A stretch of DNA of 46,637 nucleotides from Flavobacteriales bacterium (GTDB lineage: Bacteria; Bacteroidota; Bacteroidia; CAIKAF01): contig JANWKQ010000070.1 in assembly GCA_025451295.1 (NCBI GenBank), forward strand, positions 1-46,637. Reading direction: 5' to 3'. The position numbers were made by a program, and so were the translations under genes. Below are positions 11,658 to 18,742 of the stretch, one piece after another; position 1 is the stretch's first letter; every line of letters starts with the position of its first letter. The notes beneath the pieces are model-generated. The model worked only from the letters and a program-made list of their open reading frames with translations, did not search any database and was not told the origin of the DNA.

Positions 11658-12263
11658 ATGAATTTTCTCGCCCATGCCTTTTTATCCTTTGGAGATGCAG
11701 AATTGCTTACCGGCAATATGATCGCAGATGCGATCAAAGGTAAAAAAGCCGAAGAATTTCCGGCCGGCATCAAACATGGGATTTTATTGCACCGTTCAAT
11801 AGATGCATATACGGATCAACATGAATTGGTTAGACGAACCCGTAAAATATTTTATCCGGTTATTCATCACTATGCACTGGTGATGAGTGATGTGATCTAT
11901 GATCATTTTTTAGGTGTGAACTGGGAAAAATTCAGTTCTCAGCATCTGAGAGATTTTTCAACCAACACTTATGTGGATCTTGAAAAACATAGCAGCTATT
12001 TTCCGGAAAAATTTTCGAGAATATTTTCTTATATGAAGAATGACGACTGGCTGGCGATGTATGCTACCAGACCAGGTATCTATGGAACGATAGAAAGGTT
12101 ATCATACCGGAGTAAACAATTTATCTGGGCCAAAGAAACAATCAGTATTTTTGATGAGCATTATAAGGAAATGGAGGATCATTTTTTAGCATTTTTTCCT
12201 CAACTGATTGAGCATAGCAAGAAGTTTTTGGAAGATGATCCTGACGCATTACCGATTCAATAA
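11658..12263 (+). CDS. acpH: Acyl-carrier-protein phosphodiesterase (DUF479 family)
   Basis: Removes the phosphopantetheine arm from holo-ACP, a Mn-dependent hydrolase of the HD-like PF04336 family. 201 residues, close to the E. coli length. Diagnostic stretches: the opening MNFLAHAFLSFGD, GNMIADAIKG, the metal-site phrase GIKHGILLHRSIDAYTDQH and MSDVIYDHFLGVNW. The start is fixed by the conserved MNFLAHA. Its last five codons overlap the end of the converging membrane-protein gene by 15 bases. Having an ACP phosphodiesterase within 2 kb of a polyketide/fatty-acid-like cluster is noteworthy but may be chance. Confidence 0.88.
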   Translation: MNFLAHAFLSFGDAELLTGNMIADAIKGKKAEEFPAGIKHGILLHRSIDAYTDQHELVRRTRKIFYPVIHHYALVMSDVIYDHFLGVNWEKFSSQHLRDFSTNTYVDLEKHSSYFPEKFSRIFSYMKNDDWLAMYATRPGIYGTIERLSYRSKQFIWAKETISIFDEHYKEMEDHFLAFFPQLIEHSKKFLEDDPDALPIQ

Positions 12264-12840: not shown

Positions 12841-13368
12841 CTATTTTTCAATTCGAACGCATCCTTTATAGTTGAGTATTTGGCCAAGCAGAGGAGACAG
12901 GGTGTTTACTTCGACCTTCCATCCATCCTCATGTTCAACAGCCGAAGCTTTGCTAAAAATGCTCATGAATCCGGGTAACCGGATACCCAGGAACCGGGTA
13001 TATACCTGTTCAAAAAACAGTGAATGGTCTTTAACGTACACTTTAAATCCCAGCTCTACAGATCCGGCTCGTTCGGCTAAAAAACCATTTCGTACGTATT
13101 GATCTGTACTGAATATTTTTCCATTGAAACTTCGTCTCCAGATCTCTTTTTCCTCCAGACGCACCACATCCAAGATCAGATCCATGTTTTTTCCTTCTGG
13201 GGGAAGTCCGTTCATCTTGTTAAAAGTCCGAATCAACCAACCCTTTCCATATTCCACATCAATTTTACCAGAAGCTTTAATGCTGGAAGAGCCATGACCC
13301 AATTGCAGAAAAGGACCGAGTTGGCTGAAATCTTCACCAAGAAGCTTTGGATAGACAAAAGTTGACAC
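12841..13368 (-). CDS. DUF4166 domain protein
   Basis: 175 residues starting with GTG at 13368. The whole length matches DUF4166: GHGSSSIKASGKIDVEYGKG near the start, FNKMNGLPPEGKN, IWRRSFNGKIF, then GIRLPG and a closing GQILNYKGCVRIEK. This domain is often fused to, or encoded beside, saccharopine-dehydrogenase-like proteins; here it stands alone. Function unknown. A TACATTTA element lies four bases before the start, so its message is probably leaderless. It is separated by 91 bases from the seven-gene operon that ends upstream. Confidence 0.8.
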   Translation of the reverse strand: MSTFVYPKLLGEDFSQLGPFLQLGHGSSSIKASGKIDVEYGKGWLIRTFNKMNGLPPEGKNMDLILDVVRLEEKEIWRRSFNGKIFSTDQYVRNGFLAERAGSVELGFKVYVKDHSLFFEQVYTRFLGIRLPGFMSIFSKASAVEHEDGWKVEVNTLSPLLGQILNYKGCVRIEK

Positions 13369-13459: not shown

Positions 13460-13981
13460 TTAGTGTTGTATGGGTACATAAGTCCAATCCCATTCATCTC
13501 TGTTTATTTTGGATAGATCGACGGGAGTTAGCCAAAAGAAATAATAGAGAAAAGGTTCTGCTTTCATTACAATTGGATTTTCTGCAGTTCCATCGCGGCT
13601 GAATTCACTTTTAGTTAGAATTTTTACATTAGGATTGGATTTGTTAATATACAAGGGCCTGAAACCACTATAGGAAAAAGCATGAAAGAATGCAATGACC
13701 AACAAAACGAATCCAATGCCAAATGCACCTACAATGGTAGCTGTCTGGATCGAAATGTTTTTCTCTTTTGATTTGGATTTTGTTCCAAGCATCGTGAGAA
13801 GAATAGCTGCTCCAACTACAAATGCTCTGGAGGTCTCATACTTAATTCGAGCCCCTGGAAATCTGAATTCAATCAGATCGGTTGCATCAATAATAAGGGC
13901 TACAACGAACATTTGAATGATAGCCAGGGCGATCCCAAACAATGTGTACTGAATTGCTTTTATAATTTGTTTTGTTTCCAT
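13460..13981 (-). CDS. Membrane protein with C-terminal PFLYYFFW...KINRDEW motif (paralogue A)
   Basis: 173 residues, last gene of the leftward micro-membrane operon. Three spans are seen (about 12-32, 52-65, 78-102), then an extracytoplasmic-looking tail. The tail ends PFLYYFFWLTPVDLSKINRD, which aligns with the end of the neighbouring 171-residue protein (PFLFYFQQVVPIDTMKINRK). The two are diverged tandem copies. It is 31 bases after the neighbour. No known family recognised. Confidence 0.7.
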   Translation of the reverse strand: METKQIIKAIQYTLFGIALAIIQMFVVALIIDATDLIEFRFPGARIKYETSRAFVVGAAILLTMLGTKSKSKEKNISIQTATIVGAFGIGFVLLVIAFFHAFSYSGFRPLYINKSNPNVKILTKSEFSRDGTAENPIVMKAEPFLYYFFWLTPVDLSKINRDEWDWTYVPIQH

Positions 13982-14012
13982 ATAAATGTGGAGGTTTTAA
14001 TATCTAAAAAAT

Positions 14013-14528
14013 TTATGGCTGAACCCGTGCCCAGTTTTTTCTGTTGATCTTCATTGTGTCAATAGGCACTACCTGTTGAAAATAGAATAGGAATGGGGTA
14101 ATTTTGTAGGTTCTTGTAACAGATGGATCACTATCTGTGGCTCCACAACCAAATTCTGCCTGCACAATCTTTGTTTGCTGGTATTTTGCATGTACAAAAA
14201 CTGTTTTATCACCGGATCTTCCACACATTCCGAAAACAAAAAGATGAATGGCCAAGATGTAGTAAAAAAATAAATTAACAATAAAGGCTCCAACGACAAT
14301 GGAACCATTCAACCACCATTTATATTTTACATTTAACAAACAAATACTCAGGATAAACGTGAGCAATGGAAGTATCTGAGCTTCCAGTTCGAATAACTGT
14401 ATATTGTACTTTTCATCAGTAAATTCGATGGTTGAAAAGTCAATAACTAAATGAGCTAGCAAGTCATATTTTATAATCTCCAATAGAATAACAAATAAAC
14501 TGTATCTGAGCAATCGTATTGGCTTCAT
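14013..14528 (-). CDS. Membrane protein with C-terminal PFLFYFQQ...KINRKNW motif (paralogue B)
   Basis: 171 residues from the ATG at 14528, which overlaps the stop of the ferritin-like gene by four bases (ATGA); an upstream ATG at 14546 would overlap by 22 and is less likely. Three to four spans (about 7-25, 50-65, 75-100) followed by a soluble tail with three Cys (GMCGRSG and EFGCGATDSD). The final 30 residues match paralogue A. No known family recognised. Translational coupling to the diiron protein gene suggests that both products act together. Confidence 0.7.
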   Translation of the reverse strand: MKPIRLLRYSLFVILLEIIKYDLLAHLVIDFSTIEFTDEKYNIQLFELEAQILPLLTFILSICLLNVKYKWWLNGSIVVGAFIVNLFFYYILAIHLFVFGMCGRSGDKTVFVHAKYQQTKIVQAEFGCGATDSDPSVTRTYKITPFLFYFQQVVPIDTMKINRKNWARVQP

Positions 14529-15286
14529 AATTCTATTTGTTCCCATTTCAATTTGCTAAGATAAACATTGGATTTCGGACGAAACAATCTTTTAATGGTC
14601 TTATTAAATTTCAACTTCATTTTTGAATAGTACCTGTTAAAATTAATTCCACCTGCCCTGAAAACTTTCCGATGGGCAATGTATACCATCGTTATGGTGG
14701 AAAAGAAAAATATCCAGTACGCATATAACCTCCAGAAACGGGAAAATGCAGACATGTTTCTTGTGATCTGCGCTAATCTTTCAAACTGGAAATTAATATG
14801 AAAAGCTTCGTCGATGAGAATATCGGTACAAATTTCCTTGAGAAGTGTGCATTGGGTGGCATTTTTCAGCGATTGGTAATATACCTGTGCGGTGTTTTCA
14901 ACCGTAAGAACGGTTAAGGTCCATAATTCCATGTTGGTGTTAAAATATCTCACCTGTCGGAATAAACTATCTCCCCAATCAGCTTTGATCCTGGAAACAT
15001 TCAATCGATCTAAATAAATACCCAGGTTCTCTCCATGTTTATTTTCTTCTTTGATAAACAGGTGAACGGCGGAAAGAAAATCAGGATCATTTACCTGTTC
15101 CGCATGTTTTTTGGATGCGGCGATCAGATGTTTTCCATCGGAGGTTTCGGCCAGTTGCCAGGCTTGCAATGATCTGAGGATTTTGCGCTTTTGATCTTTG
15201 GTTAATGACGGTTGTAACGTCCAGTTGACCCGTTTAACTTTTAAGTTACGGGAAAAATGTTCTTCCCAATATTTCGATGTTTTCAT
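14525..15286 (-). CDS. Ferritin-like diiron protein with a membrane segment
   Basis: 253 residues from the ATG at 15286 (MKTSKYWEEH); the longer frame runs back towards the previous gene. A four-helix diiron site is visible: Glu47 (QLAETSDG), Glu81-x-x-His84 (KEENKHGEN), Glu130 (TVENTAQVYYQS) and Glu160-x-x-His163 (IDEAFHIN). A hydrophobic span (about 188-205, YWIFFFSTITMVYI) and a basic tail follow, so it is likely tethered to the membrane. Such proteins include oxygenases (AurF-like), desaturase-like enzymes and ferritin-like scaffolds; which one cannot be told. It sits between small membrane proteins in a seven-gene operon, which hints at a membrane lipid or redox substrate. Confidence 0.78.
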   Translation of the reverse strand: MKTSKYWEEHFSRNLKVKRVNWTLQPSLTKDQKRKILRSLQAWQLAETSDGKHLIAASKKHAEQVNDPDFLSAVHLFIKEENKHGENLGIYLDRLNVSRIKADWGDSLFRQVRYFNTNMELWTLTVLTVENTAQVYYQSLKNATQCTLLKEICTDILIDEAFHINFQFERLAQITRNMSAFSRFWRLYAYWIFFFSTITMVYIAHRKVFRAGGINFNRYYSKMKLKFNKTIKRLFRPKSNVYLSKLKWEQIEL

Positions 15287-15300
15287 TTTTTTAAATTTAA

Positions 15301-15681
15301 TTATGTGGCACCCACTCCCCAACTTCCTTCCGAGGTGGTGCTGAATAATATGAAGATTAAAAGAAGACCTAATAACAGAATAGCATCAATTATTGCTAAT
15401 CCAATCACCAATGCTTTTACGATCAATATAATGAGATTTTCATTTTTTATCTTGTATATGACAATGCTGCTGGTGATAAGTGATATAGGTTTTAGCAAAA
15501 AACAAACAGCCATTAGTTTACCATTTGTTATTGAGATCCCCAAAAGCGATGATTTGCCCCAAAACATAACTGTCATTATTCCGCTTATCACGCTTATACA
15601 GAATAAAGTGATAAATAGAATCCACAATTTCCAGGTGCTGGTTTCTGACATTTTGTTCATTGCTTTTACTGAGGTATTCAT
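15301..15681 (-). CDS. Small multi-span membrane protein
   Basis: 126 residues from the ATG at 15681 (MNTSVKAMNKMSE). Three or four spans: LWILFITLFCISVISGIMTV, a middle pair, and IIDAILLLGLLLIFILF near the end, which closes GSWGVGAT. It starts 10 bases after the 55-residue gene and stops 14 bases before the ferritin-like gene. No family recognised. Confidence 0.68.
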   Translation of the reverse strand: MNTSVKAMNKMSETSTWKLWILFITLFCISVISGIMTVMFWGKSSLLGISITNGKLMAVCFLLKPISLITSSIVIYKIKNENLIILIVKALVIGLAIIDAILLLGLLLIFILFSTTSEGSWGVGAT

Positions 15682-15691
15682 GTTTTTAATT

Positions 15692-15859
15692 TTAGCAATG
15701 TGCAATACTACTATCTCCGGAAAAGAACAGGTATATGGCAAAATATAGGTAGGGTACTATATATCCGAACACGATGATCACAGTGATCAATGATGCTATG
15801 GAGAGTAGGGTGATCTCGAAGAGATAAATCAGGAAATTAACTATTCTATTCATTTTCAT
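15692..15859 (-). CDS. 55-residue membrane microprotein
   Basis: An ATG at 15859 opens a 55-codon frame (MKMNRIVNFLIYLFEITLLS...), strongly hydrophobic over residues 8-46 with a Gly/Pro break (FGYIVPYLYF), so one long or two short spans. It begins 11 bases after the stop of the 49-residue gene and ends 10 bases before the 126-residue gene. Too short to carry family evidence, but the packing of the operon and the composition support it. Confidence 0.6.
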   Translation of the reverse strand: MKMNRIVNFLIYLFEITLLSIASLITVIIVFGYIVPYLYFAIYLFFSGDSSIAHC

Positions 15860-15870
15860 TAATTCCTCGA

Positions 15871-16020
15871 TTAGGTTGTTAATCCAAATGCAATTTCTAC
15901 ATCATCGGTTACGATAATAACGATCAATATCATCGCGAAAATGATAACGGAGCATATGCTGAATATGTACAGGAAGCTTTTCATCCGGTTGAGAATTCGA
16001 ATTTTATTTTCTGTAGTCAT
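15871..16020 (-). CDS. 49-residue single-span membrane microprotein
   Basis: An ATG at 16020 opens a 49-residue frame: a basic start (MTTENKIRILNRMKS), one span (about 16-37, ILIVIIV at the end) and a short acidic tail DDVEIAFGLTT. Its start overlaps the stop of the previous 49-residue frame by four bases (ATGA, 16017-16020). It is topologically simple: N-terminus inside, short tail outside. Confidence 0.62.
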   Translation of the reverse strand: MTTENKIRILNRMKSFLYIFSICSVIIFAMILIVIIVTDDVEIAFGLTT

Positions 16021-16166
16021 AATTTTCTGTTGGTTGCTTTTGTTCCCCGGGTTGAAATCCGGTGTTTATTTTTATGTTTATGGGATGCATGTCGTATGAG
16101 TTGAATCCAGCCCGCCAATAACACAAGCACCAGGCCCAGCATGAGGAGATAGATCTTATTCTTCAT
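16017..16166 (-). CDS. 49-residue single-span microprotein, first gene of the operon
   Basis: An ATG at 16166 opens a 49-residue frame with an N-terminal span (MKNKIYLLMLGLVLVLLAGW) and a strongly basic, His-rich tail (RHASHKHKNKHRIS...). Its TGA overlaps the next start (ATGA). It is the first gene of a seven-gene leftward run. No clear TAnnTTTG is seen just upstream, so the promoter may lie further out, near the inverted repeat at 16235-16314. Confidence 0.6.
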   Translation of the reverse strand: MKNKIYLLMLGLVLVLLAGWIQLIRHASHKHKNKHRISTRGTKATNRKL

Positions 16167-16234
16167 TTTTTCTGTATCTGAATTATTTCATGTTACCCGA
16201 TCGGACCCCGGGGTGAAGCAAGTAGCTCCCGATG

Positions 16235-16314
16235 TAAGTAACTGTATTTTTTGCTGGTATGGCAGAGCGGCGTGAAGCAAGCTCCTGCCATACCTTGCAA
16301 AAAACAGTTACTTA
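16235..16314. repeat. Large imperfect inverted repeat between creD and the micro-membrane operon
   Basis: Arm one at 16235-16265 (begins TAAGTAACTGT, ends GGTATGGCAG) pairs with arm two at 16285-16314 (begins CTGCCATACC, ends ACAGTTACTTA) around a 19-base loop. The only breaks are one or two bases beside the T-run. A direct repeat GTGAAGCAAG occurs at 16213-16222 and again in the loop at 16272-16281. It begins just past the creD stop and may end that transcript, or it may be a small palindromic intergenic repeat. Confidence 0.7.
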
Positions 16315-16321
16315 CCAGGGA

Positions 16322-17683
16322 CTACTGCGTAACACCGGTAGAGGGCCCCATATTCTCTTCTTTTAAAATCAGGTTGTTATCATCTCCATTCTTGGTCCAT
16401 GAAATTTTCCGCGAGAAAAACATAACCAATGATAGAATGAAGAACAGACCAACACTGCCTGCAAGCAACGCATAATCTTCTAACTGGATCAGTGAGAAAA
16501 TAAACAGGTACAAAACGGAAATCAATATTCCGAAGATGATGGCTGTTTTTATGCTTTTAAAGATCATGCCGGTGTAAATACTGATCTGCAATACAACTGC
16601 CGTAGCTGCAATACCATAAGCGATATTGAATCCCGTGTATTCGCTGATGGATAGTAAAAGTGTGTAGAAAATGAGCAATGCTGCACCTACCAATATATAT
16701 TGGGCTGCATTGATCCTTCTTTTTTGTAACAATTCAATGAAAATATAAACAACAAAAGTTAGCGTTATAATGAGGATGGCATATTTAATACTGCGATCTG
16801 TTTTTGAATAATGATCCTGGCCCTGTAGTAATTTTACTCCCATATTATTTTCAGAAGTTTGAACATTTGGCATATCACCAAAACGATCGGGTACTGTTTT
16901 TCTAACGTCCATCGTATTCCATTTAGCGGTAAATCCTTTTTCGGTTACATTACTATTTGGTAGAATTTTTCCCGTAAAGGAAGGAATGCTCCAGGGAGAT
17001 GTAAGCTCAATACTGGTTTTATTTGCGTAGGGTTGAAGATTGAGTTGCTCGTATCCCTTAAGTTGCACATCAAAGGAGAAAGATTGATTATGCATGGAGG
17101 AATCAATATTGAGTTGAATGGGAGCTGCAATACCAGCAGGGATGAACTGAACGTCATATGGATTATTTGAAAATTCTGATTGGGCATCATTGGAATTTAA
17201 ACGAACCACATCTTCCATACCGGTATAATCGCTGATGCTCATAACGAGTTGGGCTTTGTCCCAGAGTATTCCTCCATTTTCCGCAGTGTTTGGATTTACA
17301 GAAAGATCTTTAAAACTACCCGCAAAGTTGAGTTTTGTTTTATACAGGACCACCTTGTATAAACTTCGATGTTTTACTTCCGGATCGATGTTTCCTTGAA
17401 TATTAAGTTCATTTGGTTTGATCCAGAGATAGGTCAATCCTTCCCGATTGTCGATACCATTTTTGTAAGTAGGGACCAATAACATGGGACCTTTGATTGT
17501 TTGTGCCGATGCCCACTTACTTACTACTTCTTCTTTCACCTCCTCCTGTCGTTGTTTTCGTTCGCGAACCAGGTCGTGAATAAGAAATTGTGGAATGAGT
17601 AAAAAAAGAATGAGAAAGAATACAAAGATTCCCCGGAATACCAGGTAGAATCTGTCATAGAATTGCATGAATTGATTTTTCAT
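16322..17683 (-). CDS. creD: CreD-family inner-membrane protein
   Basis: 453 residues, the usual CreD length. An N-terminal span (about 15-35) precedes a large periplasmic domain (about 40-300) with the family phrases GPMLLVPTYK and RFGDMPN..., then five to six spans in the C-terminal third (YAILIITLTFVVYIFIELLQKRRINAAQYILVGAALLIFYTLLLS and after). CreD is an envelope-integrity protein of unclear biochemistry, linked to beta-lactam response in proteobacteria. Here it follows a winged-helix regulator and a membrane protein, with its own operator-like palindrome 33 bases before the start. It is therefore likely under that regulator's control. Confidence 0.92.
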   Translation of the reverse strand: MKNQFMQFYDRFYLVFRGIFVFFLILFLLIPQFLIHDLVRERKQRQEEVKEEVVSKWASAQTIKGPMLLVPTYKNGIDNREGLTYLWIKPNELNIQGNIDPEVKHRSLYKVVLYKTKLNFAGSFKDLSVNPNTAENGGILWDKAQLVMSISDYTGMEDVVRLNSNDAQSEFSNNPYDVQFIPAGIAAPIQLNIDSSMHNQSFSFDVQLKGYEQLNLQPYANKTSIELTSPWSIPSFTGKILPNSNVTEKGFTAKWNTMDVRKTVPDRFGDMPNVQTSENNMGVKLLQGQDHYSKTDRSIKYAILIITLTFVVYIFIELLQKRRINAAQYILVGAALLIFYTLLLSISEYTGFNIAYGIAATAVVLQISIYTGMIFKSIKTAIIFGILISVLYLFIFSLIQLEDYALLAGSVGLFFILSLVMFFSRKISWTKNGDDNNLILKEENMGPSTGVTQ

Positions 17684-17715: not shown

Positions 17716-17732
17716 GCTTTGAAATTCAAAGT
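17716..17732. promoter_or_regulatory. Palindromic operator in front of creD
   Basis: GCTTTG-AAATT-CAAAGT. Read on the minus strand it is TACTTTGAATTTCAAAGC, sharing TACTTTGAATT and CAAAG with the palindrome upstream of the regulator operon (18702-18718). A TATACTTTG sequence overlapping its right half resembles a -7 element. Confidence 0.65.
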
Positions 17733-17750: not shown

Positions 17751-18050
17751 CTATTGTAGTTTACGTATCATTTTTTCCAATGCATCCAAATGTGTTTTAA
17801 ATGCTTTTTCACCCAGCTTGGTGGCAGAGTAGGTGGTATTTGTCTTGCGCCCAATAAATCCTTTCTGCACACGAACATATCCATTCTCTTCCAATCCTTT
17901 TAAATGGGAGGCCAGGTTACCGTCGGTTACTCCGGTGAGTTCTTTGAGCTGATTAAAGCTCACATGATCGTTCACCATGAGTGCACTCATAATACCCAGC
18001 CGTACACGGCTGTCAAAGACTTTATTTAACTGATCTATAAAGTTCGACAT
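17751..18050 (-). CDS. Winged-helix transcriptional regulator (HTH_34 type)
   Basis: 99 residues, almost entirely one winged-helix domain: helix-turn-helix at about 30-55 (VSFNQLKELTGVTDGNLASHLKGLEENGYV) and a wing (VRVQKGFIGRKTNTTYSATKLG). This small MarR/ArsR-like family usually acts as a dimeric repressor. It starts seven bases after the membrane-protein gene, and creD follows. Two near-identical 17-bp palindromes, one overlapping the operon promoter and one before creD, are the probable binding sites, giving autoregulation plus control of creD. Ligand unknown; there is no Cys pair or His cluster that would suggest a metal sensor. Confidence 0.9.
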   Translation of the reverse strand: MSNFIDQLNKVFDSRVRLGIMSALMVNDHVSFNQLKELTGVTDGNLASHLKGLEENGYVRVQKGFIGRKTNTTYSATKLGEKAFKTHLDALEKMIRKLQ

Positions 18051-18057
18051 GCTTCAG

Positions 18058-18693
18058 TTAATTGGTTTTCCGGTCATATTTCGACCACATATAGATCCCA
18101 TAGATGATATGACAAAATCCAAACCCGAGTATCCAGAAAATAAAACTATAATCCGAAAAAAGAAGATTAACTAATCCCAATGCGATAATAGTTAATGCAA
18201 GGTACAGGGTTTCATGGATCGTAAATTTATATACACTGAAAAGTGAAATGCCATACACAATCAAACTCATCGGTGCAATATAAAGAAAGTCCTGCTTACC
18301 GATCATATAAATAATAAACATGGTTCCGGCAGTAAAAGGGACCAGAAAATGAAAGGCCACTTTACGGCTCATATTGCCCCAGATATTTATTTTCTGCTTT
18401 TGAGATTTGATATAGGTAAAAATAAAGGCGCTGACCATAGCTACCAGAAAAGTTCCGATAGCAATGTACGACAAGGGGTGAAAAACATAATCGGTAACGG
18501 TATCATAGCCTTGCCGGCGAAGGGCTTTGTACGTTTCCTGTTCACTCAGGTCAACATAGGGATAAGCCAGGGCCGCACCAATGAGTGCTGTAGTTCCGGC
18601 CGCCACACCACTCCATCCACTGAGGCTGATGAAACGGCTGGACTTTTCCATCATGGATTTGATCTCCTTTAATTGCTCAAGTTCGTTGGTCAT
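18058..18693 (-). CDS. Membrane protein of the creD operon
   Basis: 211 residues. A charged N-terminal helix (MTNELEQLKEIKSMMEKSSRF) precedes about six spans (LSGWSGVAAGTTALIGAALAY, LSYIAIGTFLVAMVSAFIFTY and four more) and a basic end. It is the regular partner of the HTH_34 regulator in Bacteroidota and is often annotated as hypothetical. The short coiled N-terminus followed by spans could let it touch the regulator at the membrane; this is speculation. Its promoter is overlapped by the palindromic operator. Confidence 0.75.
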   Translation of the reverse strand: MTNELEQLKEIKSMMEKSSRFISLSGWSGVAAGTTALIGAALAYPYVDLSEQETYKALRRQGYDTVTDYVFHPLSYIAIGTFLVAMVSAFIFTYIKSQKQKINIWGNMSRKVAFHFLVPFTAGTMFIIYMIGKQDFLYIAPMSLIVYGISLFSVYKFTIHETLYLALTIIALGLVNLLFSDYSFIFWILGFGFCHIIYGIYMWSKYDRKTN

Positions 18694-18701
18694 AAAAAAG
18701 T

Positions 18702-18718
18702 ACTTTGAATTACAAAGT
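18702..18718. promoter_or_regulatory. Palindromic operator overlapping the regulator-operon promoter
   Basis: ACTTTG-AATTA-CAAAGT. Its right half (read on the minus strand, TAACTTTG) is also the -7 element of the promoter, so a bound repressor would block RNA polymerase. It matches the palindrome before creD. Confidence 0.7.
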
Positions 18719-18742
18719 TAAACATAGTTTTATAACGTGCAA
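18713..18742 (-). promoter_or_regulatory. Promoter of the membrane protein - regulator operon
   Basis: On the minus strand TTG (18740-18742), 19 bases, TAACTTTG (18713-18720): a full match to the Bacteroidota promoter form. The start codon is about 20 bases downstream of the -7 element. Confidence 0.75.

Follow-up and report, generated by a model that had tools for sequence, protein, structure and literature searches.

Organization of the locus

The window analyzed here is a 46,637-nucleotide stretch of contig JANWKQ010000070.1 from the draft genome of a Flavobacteriales bacterium (assembly GCA_025451295.1), which is 78% complete. From position 16166 to 13460 on the minus strand it carries seven leftward open reading frames (ORFs) encoding products of 49, 49, 55, 126, 253, 177, and 173 amino acids (aa), which are separated by 10 to 31 bases or overlap, as a preliminary description of this DNA had stated. 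The two 49-aa genes share an ATGA overlap, and the 253-aa and 177-aa genes overlap by 22 bases, or by an ATGA if an internal start of the 177-aa gene is used. No Rfam families or tRNAs were found in the window. The ORFs and the features upstream of them, in the direction of transcription, are as follows.

18713 to 18720, minus strand: Bacteroidota-type -7 promoter element TAACTTTG upstream of p211, by sequence match
18703 to 18717, minus strand: candidate operator 1, the conserved palindrome CTTTG-TAATT-CAAAG, which overlaps the -7 element and lies immediately ahead of the p211 start codon
18058 to 18693, minus strand: p211, a membrane protein of several helices that belongs to no curated family and is a candidate sensor or regulator partner
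17751 to 18050, minus strand: HTH_34 winged-helix regulator of 99 aa (Pfam PF13601, E 1.5e-27)
17717 to 17731, minus strand: candidate operator 2, the conserved palindrome CTTTG-AATTT-CAAAG, between the regulator and cargo genes
16322 to 17683, minus strand: CreD-family inner membrane protein, first cargo gene (Pfam PF06123, E 1.4e-130)
16234 to 16315, minus strand: strong imperfect inverted repeat or hairpin between CreD and the small genes (RNA z-score -7.0; single copy in the genome)
16017 to 16166, minus strand: 49-aa membrane microprotein a, with 70% identity across 40 aa to a product encoded between CreD and the diiron gene at a same-genus locus
15871 to 16020, minus strand: 49-aa single-helix microprotein b, from ORF and hydropathy only; no homolog in other diiron loci
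15692 to 15859, minus strand: 55-aa single-helix microprotein, from ORF and hydropathy only
15301 to 15681, minus strand: 126-aa membrane protein, from ORF and hydropathy only
14525 to 15286, minus strand: 253-aa ferritin-like di-metal protein with predicted ligands E47, E81, H84, E130, E160, and H163
14013 to 14546, minus strand: 177-aa membrane protein, which may start at an internal ATG overlapping the diiron stop codon
13460 to 13981, minus strand: 173-aa membrane protein, a paralog of the 177-aa protein by sequence comparison

The operon probably extends upstream of the seven genes to a start at 18693 or 17683 and takes in p211, HTH_34, and CreD. The seven-gene unit is probably the distal, variable part of this longer operon, parted from CreD by the hairpin at 16234 to 16315. 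In the window, this hairpin may separate CreD from the small genes, and it is a possible attenuator or processing site. Co-transcription of the small genes with CreD is taken as an assumption, because the strong hairpin stands between them and no operator lies directly before the diiron gene; no further copy of the palindrome was found near that gene in the window. A mobile repeat was also suspected at the hairpin, but the element is single copy in this incomplete genome. Just downstream of the seven genes, on the same strand, lies a gene for a DUF4166 protein (12841 to 13368, minus strand), which is possibly co-transcribed. Convergent with the cluster is a gene for an acyl carrier protein phosphodiesterase (11658 to 12263, plus strand), and the sister genome has a similar ORF at the corresponding position (L020, 4399 to 4983).

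The di-metal protein

As judged from its sequence and predicted structure, the 253-aa protein is a member of the ferritin-like di-metal carboxylate superfamily, combining a helical bundle with the series E, ExxH, E, ExxH. Its six predicted ligands are invariant in 18 sequences, namely, the window protein and 17 homologs that are 31 to 74% identical to it, and are also kept in two relatives on Streptomycetaceae plasmids. Among named relatives, the closest is a Flavobacteriales metagenome-assembled genome, with 74% identity in the 253-aa protein. The ExxH...E...ExxH site noticed in the preliminary description is borne out by this six-ligand signature, with all six ligands kept in the homologs compared. 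The membrane segment proposed for the same protein is not: the highest 19-residue hydropathy is 1.33, under the usual threshold, and helix 180-204 belongs to a confident, all-helical AlphaFold2 model (pLDDT 89).

In a fold search with this model, R2-like ligand-binding oxidase (R2lox) was the best match (TM 0.64, E 4e-4), and cyanobacterial aldehyde-deformylating oxygenase (ADO) was matched with TM scores of 0.61/0.69; these matches hold at the superfamily level only, with 15 to 18% identity to R2lox. A PDB sequence search with the enzyme profile gave no match, and searches of plasmids and phages returned remote relatives only, the phage matches (E 6e-3) being differently annotated. FA_desaturase_2 was suggested by the EENKHG motif; the hhalign profile probability is just 9.7%, and the 253-aa protein has no Pfam match. 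For Metal_hydrol (PF10118), the window protein scores 17.3 bits, below the gathering score of 33.2 bits, and genome searches for PF10118 and AurF found no members in the class.

By its modeled fold and by analogy, the enzyme is probably an R2lox/ADO-like di-metal oxidase acting on a membrane lipid or a quinone. An oxidized long-chain lipid or quinone is the leading substrate class because the R2lox/ADO fold is accompanied by the associations with fatty acid hydroxylase, Coq4-like, and MpaB-like genes given below. The oxygenase-like or stress-related role suggested at the outset is plausible in view of this fold and of the envelope role of CreD elsewhere, whereas its membrane-bound part is unsupported.

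A serious rival, if a rather unlikely one, accepts the module and regulon proposed below and takes the di-metal protein as a protective ferroxidase or peroxidase of the rubrerythrin or mini-ferritin type, which would clear peroxide or ferrous iron in envelope stress and have no lipid substrate. Sub-threshold Rubrerythrin matches in 16 of the 18 family members (best 4e-4) and EncB-like ferritin matches in 9 are consistent with such a role. However, no rubredoxin domain was detected in the 253-aa protein, R2lox and ADO, not rubrerythrin or ferritin, give the best alignments with the confident model, and the length and extra C-terminal helices of the protein exceed a minimal four-helix bundle.

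Distribution of the p211-HTH_34 pair

To judge from gene neighborhoods, the lasting partners of the enzyme are p211 and HTH_34, not the small genes. The pair lies upstream of the enzyme in 19 of 22 diiron loci, each from a different genome, and CreD or DUF4153 usually intervenes or lies alongside. Unbiased sampling of the phylum (396 Bacteroidota genomes) turned up the diiron gene in 7 genomes, including the window's own, and it is linked to p211-HTH_34 in all of the other 6, with a very divergent p211 in one (G319). About a third of the sample (132 of 396 genomes) has p211, which adjoins HTH_34 in each of the 66 p211 loci examined; these gene-content counts treat related genomes as independent. 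The window's HTH_34 matches PF13601 at 96 bits (cut-off, 27). For p211, no sensing domain has been described, and a fold search with its model gave noise only. In the three exceptional diiron genomes, no p211 was found genome-wide at an E value of ≤0.001 and no such pair lies beside the diiron gene; in one of them, a fatty acid hydroxylase gene precedes the enzyme gene on the same strand, with 75 bases between the two. The enzyme can do without the module, since no such pair is annotated beside its Streptomyces relatives.

Palindromes and promoter

The Bacteroidota -7 element has the consensus TANNTTTG. Of 81 loci, 38 have the pattern TTG-N17-23-TANNTTTG ahead of p211, versus 4% of random windows; in the window, this region reads TAACTTTGTAATTCAAAGTA, a -7 element overlapping the palindrome, and the operator 1 palindrome overlaps the promoter element in many loci. 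Of 79 loci, 54 carry CTTTG-N5-CAAAG, with a spacing of exactly 5, ahead of p211, 60 carry it in the interval from HTH_34 to the first cargo gene, and 51 have both sites; the expected count, taken from other stretches of these loci, is 0.12. In the sister species, the half-sites ahead of p211 are kept and the spacer varies. Several p211 loci without the strict palindrome (L084, L109, L114, L118, and others) have CTTTG-N5-AAAAG instead. In six loci, operator 2 precedes the diiron start codon by 18, 18, 21, 27, 31, and 118 nt, a position that links the enzyme directly with the site. The predicted regulatory anatomy, consisting of the pair, the paired palindromes, and a changing cargo, is well supported by these patterns.

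The longer form ACTTTG-N5-CAAAGT has 0 to 4 copies per genome in the 24 genomes searched whole. Copies outside the locus precede members of a small membrane family that is cargo elsewhere (three genomes), a related 112-aa membrane protein in two genomes, whose family is p211-locus cargo in one (L079, L171, and L174; likeness by eye), MpaB/Lcp-type oxygenase genes in two genomes (L165 and L175), and a Coq4-like protein in one genome. Some of the other off-locus copies are probably due to chance.

It is unlikely, though the promoter geometry leaves some room for it, that the palindrome is read by an activator, be it HTH_34 itself, or by another regulator of which HTH_34 and p211 are merely targets. 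Of the 60 loci with operator 2, just 11 have it overlapping a canonical -7 element, so that simple promoter occlusion is not evident there. Against such a reading stand the flanking of the HTH_34 gene by the palindrome on both sides in most p211 loci and a search of the three diiron genomes without p211, in which the full site, ACTTTG-N5-CAAAGT, was not found. If HTH_34 is the repressor, as preferred here, repression at operator 2 may work differently because of the infrequent -7 overlap.

Cargo genes

Among the 66 p211 loci, the gene cargo behind the pair includes CreD in 26 and DUF4153 in 20, with no locus having the two together (hypergeometric P = 3e-6, uncorrected for relatedness), and in these gene contents DUF4153 and CreD are apparent substitutes for each other. 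The diiron gene stands behind the pair in 6 of the 66. Other cargo comprises small membrane proteins, DUF1361, and diacylglycerol-kinase-like genes, the last named by eye. Within one genus, the diiron gene lies between CreD and a methyltransferase-like gene in some species (L064, L065, and L067) and is absent in another (L072). Stenotrophomonas cells that lose CreD have an impaired envelope and mount a sigma-E response (PMC4689548), which supports reading the cargo as serving the envelope.

Coq4-like proteins are module cargo in two p211 loci and lie behind the off-locus operator in a third genome (L074, L075, and L167). They lend something to the quite improbable alternative that the di-metal protein is a COQ7-like quinone hydroxylase, which would supply an alternative quinone during envelope or oxygen stress. 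COQ7 is also among the weak matches of the enzyme family, in one member at an E value of 0.1; however, this sequence support is very weak, and R2lox and ADO come first in the fold search.

Small membrane proteins beside the enzyme

Among the small genes, tblastn against the other diiron loci turned up a homolog for the first 49-aa gene alone, in one sister species (70% over 40 aa); the stretch from CreD to the diiron gene in that sister genome holds other ORFs, including one for a metallophosphoesterase. The 177-aa and 173-aa proteins are tandem paralogs (28 to 31% identity, E about 1e-10), as had been proposed, and belong to a rare family with members in 5 of some 294 further genomes of the class; the diiron search covered 1 of these 5 and found no diiron gene in it. 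The small membrane proteins around the enzyme look like lineage-specific additions, not obligate subunits.

The layout had been put forward as a conserved unit whose tight packing implies a stoichiometric membrane complex, and neither proposal holds up, the small genes not recurring beside the enzyme in other species except for gene a in the sister species. Conservation of the neighborhood, proposed as a check, gave a divided answer: the seven-gene neighborhood is not kept, but that of p211 and HTH_34, which had not been listed, is. A complex of all seven products with a membrane-bound di-metal oxygenase is highly improbable: the tight packing in a single direction and the hydrophobic small products speak for it, and the absence of the small genes from every other diiron locus (gene a aside), the occurrence of the 177/173-aa family only where no diiron gene was found, and the lack of a membrane segment in the diiron protein speak against it.

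Proposed mechanism

The locus is probably one version of a widespread Bacteroidota module in which p211 and an autoregulated HTH_34 would control interchangeable envelope cargo, one item being a di-metal oxidase that acts on a long-chain substrate. From the position and conservation of the palindromes, HTH_34 would bind them and repress both its own operon and the cargo operon. Upon membrane perturbation, p211 would release or hold HTH_34, and induction would lead to production of CreD (or DUF4153) and the di-metal enzyme, cargo that may protect or remodel the envelope. The enzyme itself would most likely use O2 to oxidize a long-chain substrate, either fatty acyl or isoprenoid quinone, in the cytosol or at the membrane periphery, and is best read as one optional output of a p211/HTH_34 DNA switch. 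The confidences of this explanation and its rivals overlap because several of the rivals share the regulatory part and depart from it only over the enzyme or over whether regulation is positive or negative.

More tentatively, the module may represent a phylum-wide envelope-stress regulon of Bacteroidota, in which p211 and HTH_34 act through a fixed palindrome to control a varying set of redox enzymes for membrane lipids or isoprenoid quinones (di-metal oxidase, Coq4-like, and MpaB/Lcp-type) along with CreD or its functional substitute DUF4153. No published description of a p211/HTH_34 module was found in a partial coverage of the literature, mostly without subscription papers, which is weak evidence of novelty. 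The module would supply a specific regulon, with regulator, operator sequence, and targets, for about a third of the sampled Bacteroidota, where envelope-stress regulation is poorly mapped. It would also link CreD and DUF4153, both of unclear function, and give an uncharacterized di-metal oxidase family a physiological setting that points to where its substrate may lie.

Comparison with known systems

R2lox, the best fold match, has the same four-Glu/two-His ligand set as the 253-aa protein, and the NCBIfam R2lox model gives sub-threshold matches in 4 of the 18 family members (1.4e-4). It differs in sequence, as noted above, and the curated model has no match to the window protein at an E value of ≤0.1. 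R2lox binds a fatty acid and carries a cross-link between V72 and Y162 (PMC6399176); neither residue has a counterpart at the same ligand offsets here, where the alignment has an acidic residue at position 50 and a residue other than Tyr at 125, a comparison that assumes an ungapped offset from the ligands and depends on the ligand numbering taken for R2lox. ADO resembles the protein in fold, in its single ferritin-like domain of similar size, and in two carboxylate/ExxH pairs. It acts on fatty aldehydes and is only 12 to 15% identical, and no acyl-ACP reductase partner was seen in the loci examined. In acyl-ACP desaturases (FA_desaturase_2), the EENxHG and DExxH motifs align with those of the window protein.

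The CreBC-CreD system shares with the locus a CreD-family membrane protein, here a candidate regulated output. Unlike in that system, the regulator beside creD at this locus is p211 with HTH_34 rather than the CreB/CreC two-component pair, and in many genomes with the module DUF4153 replaces CreD.
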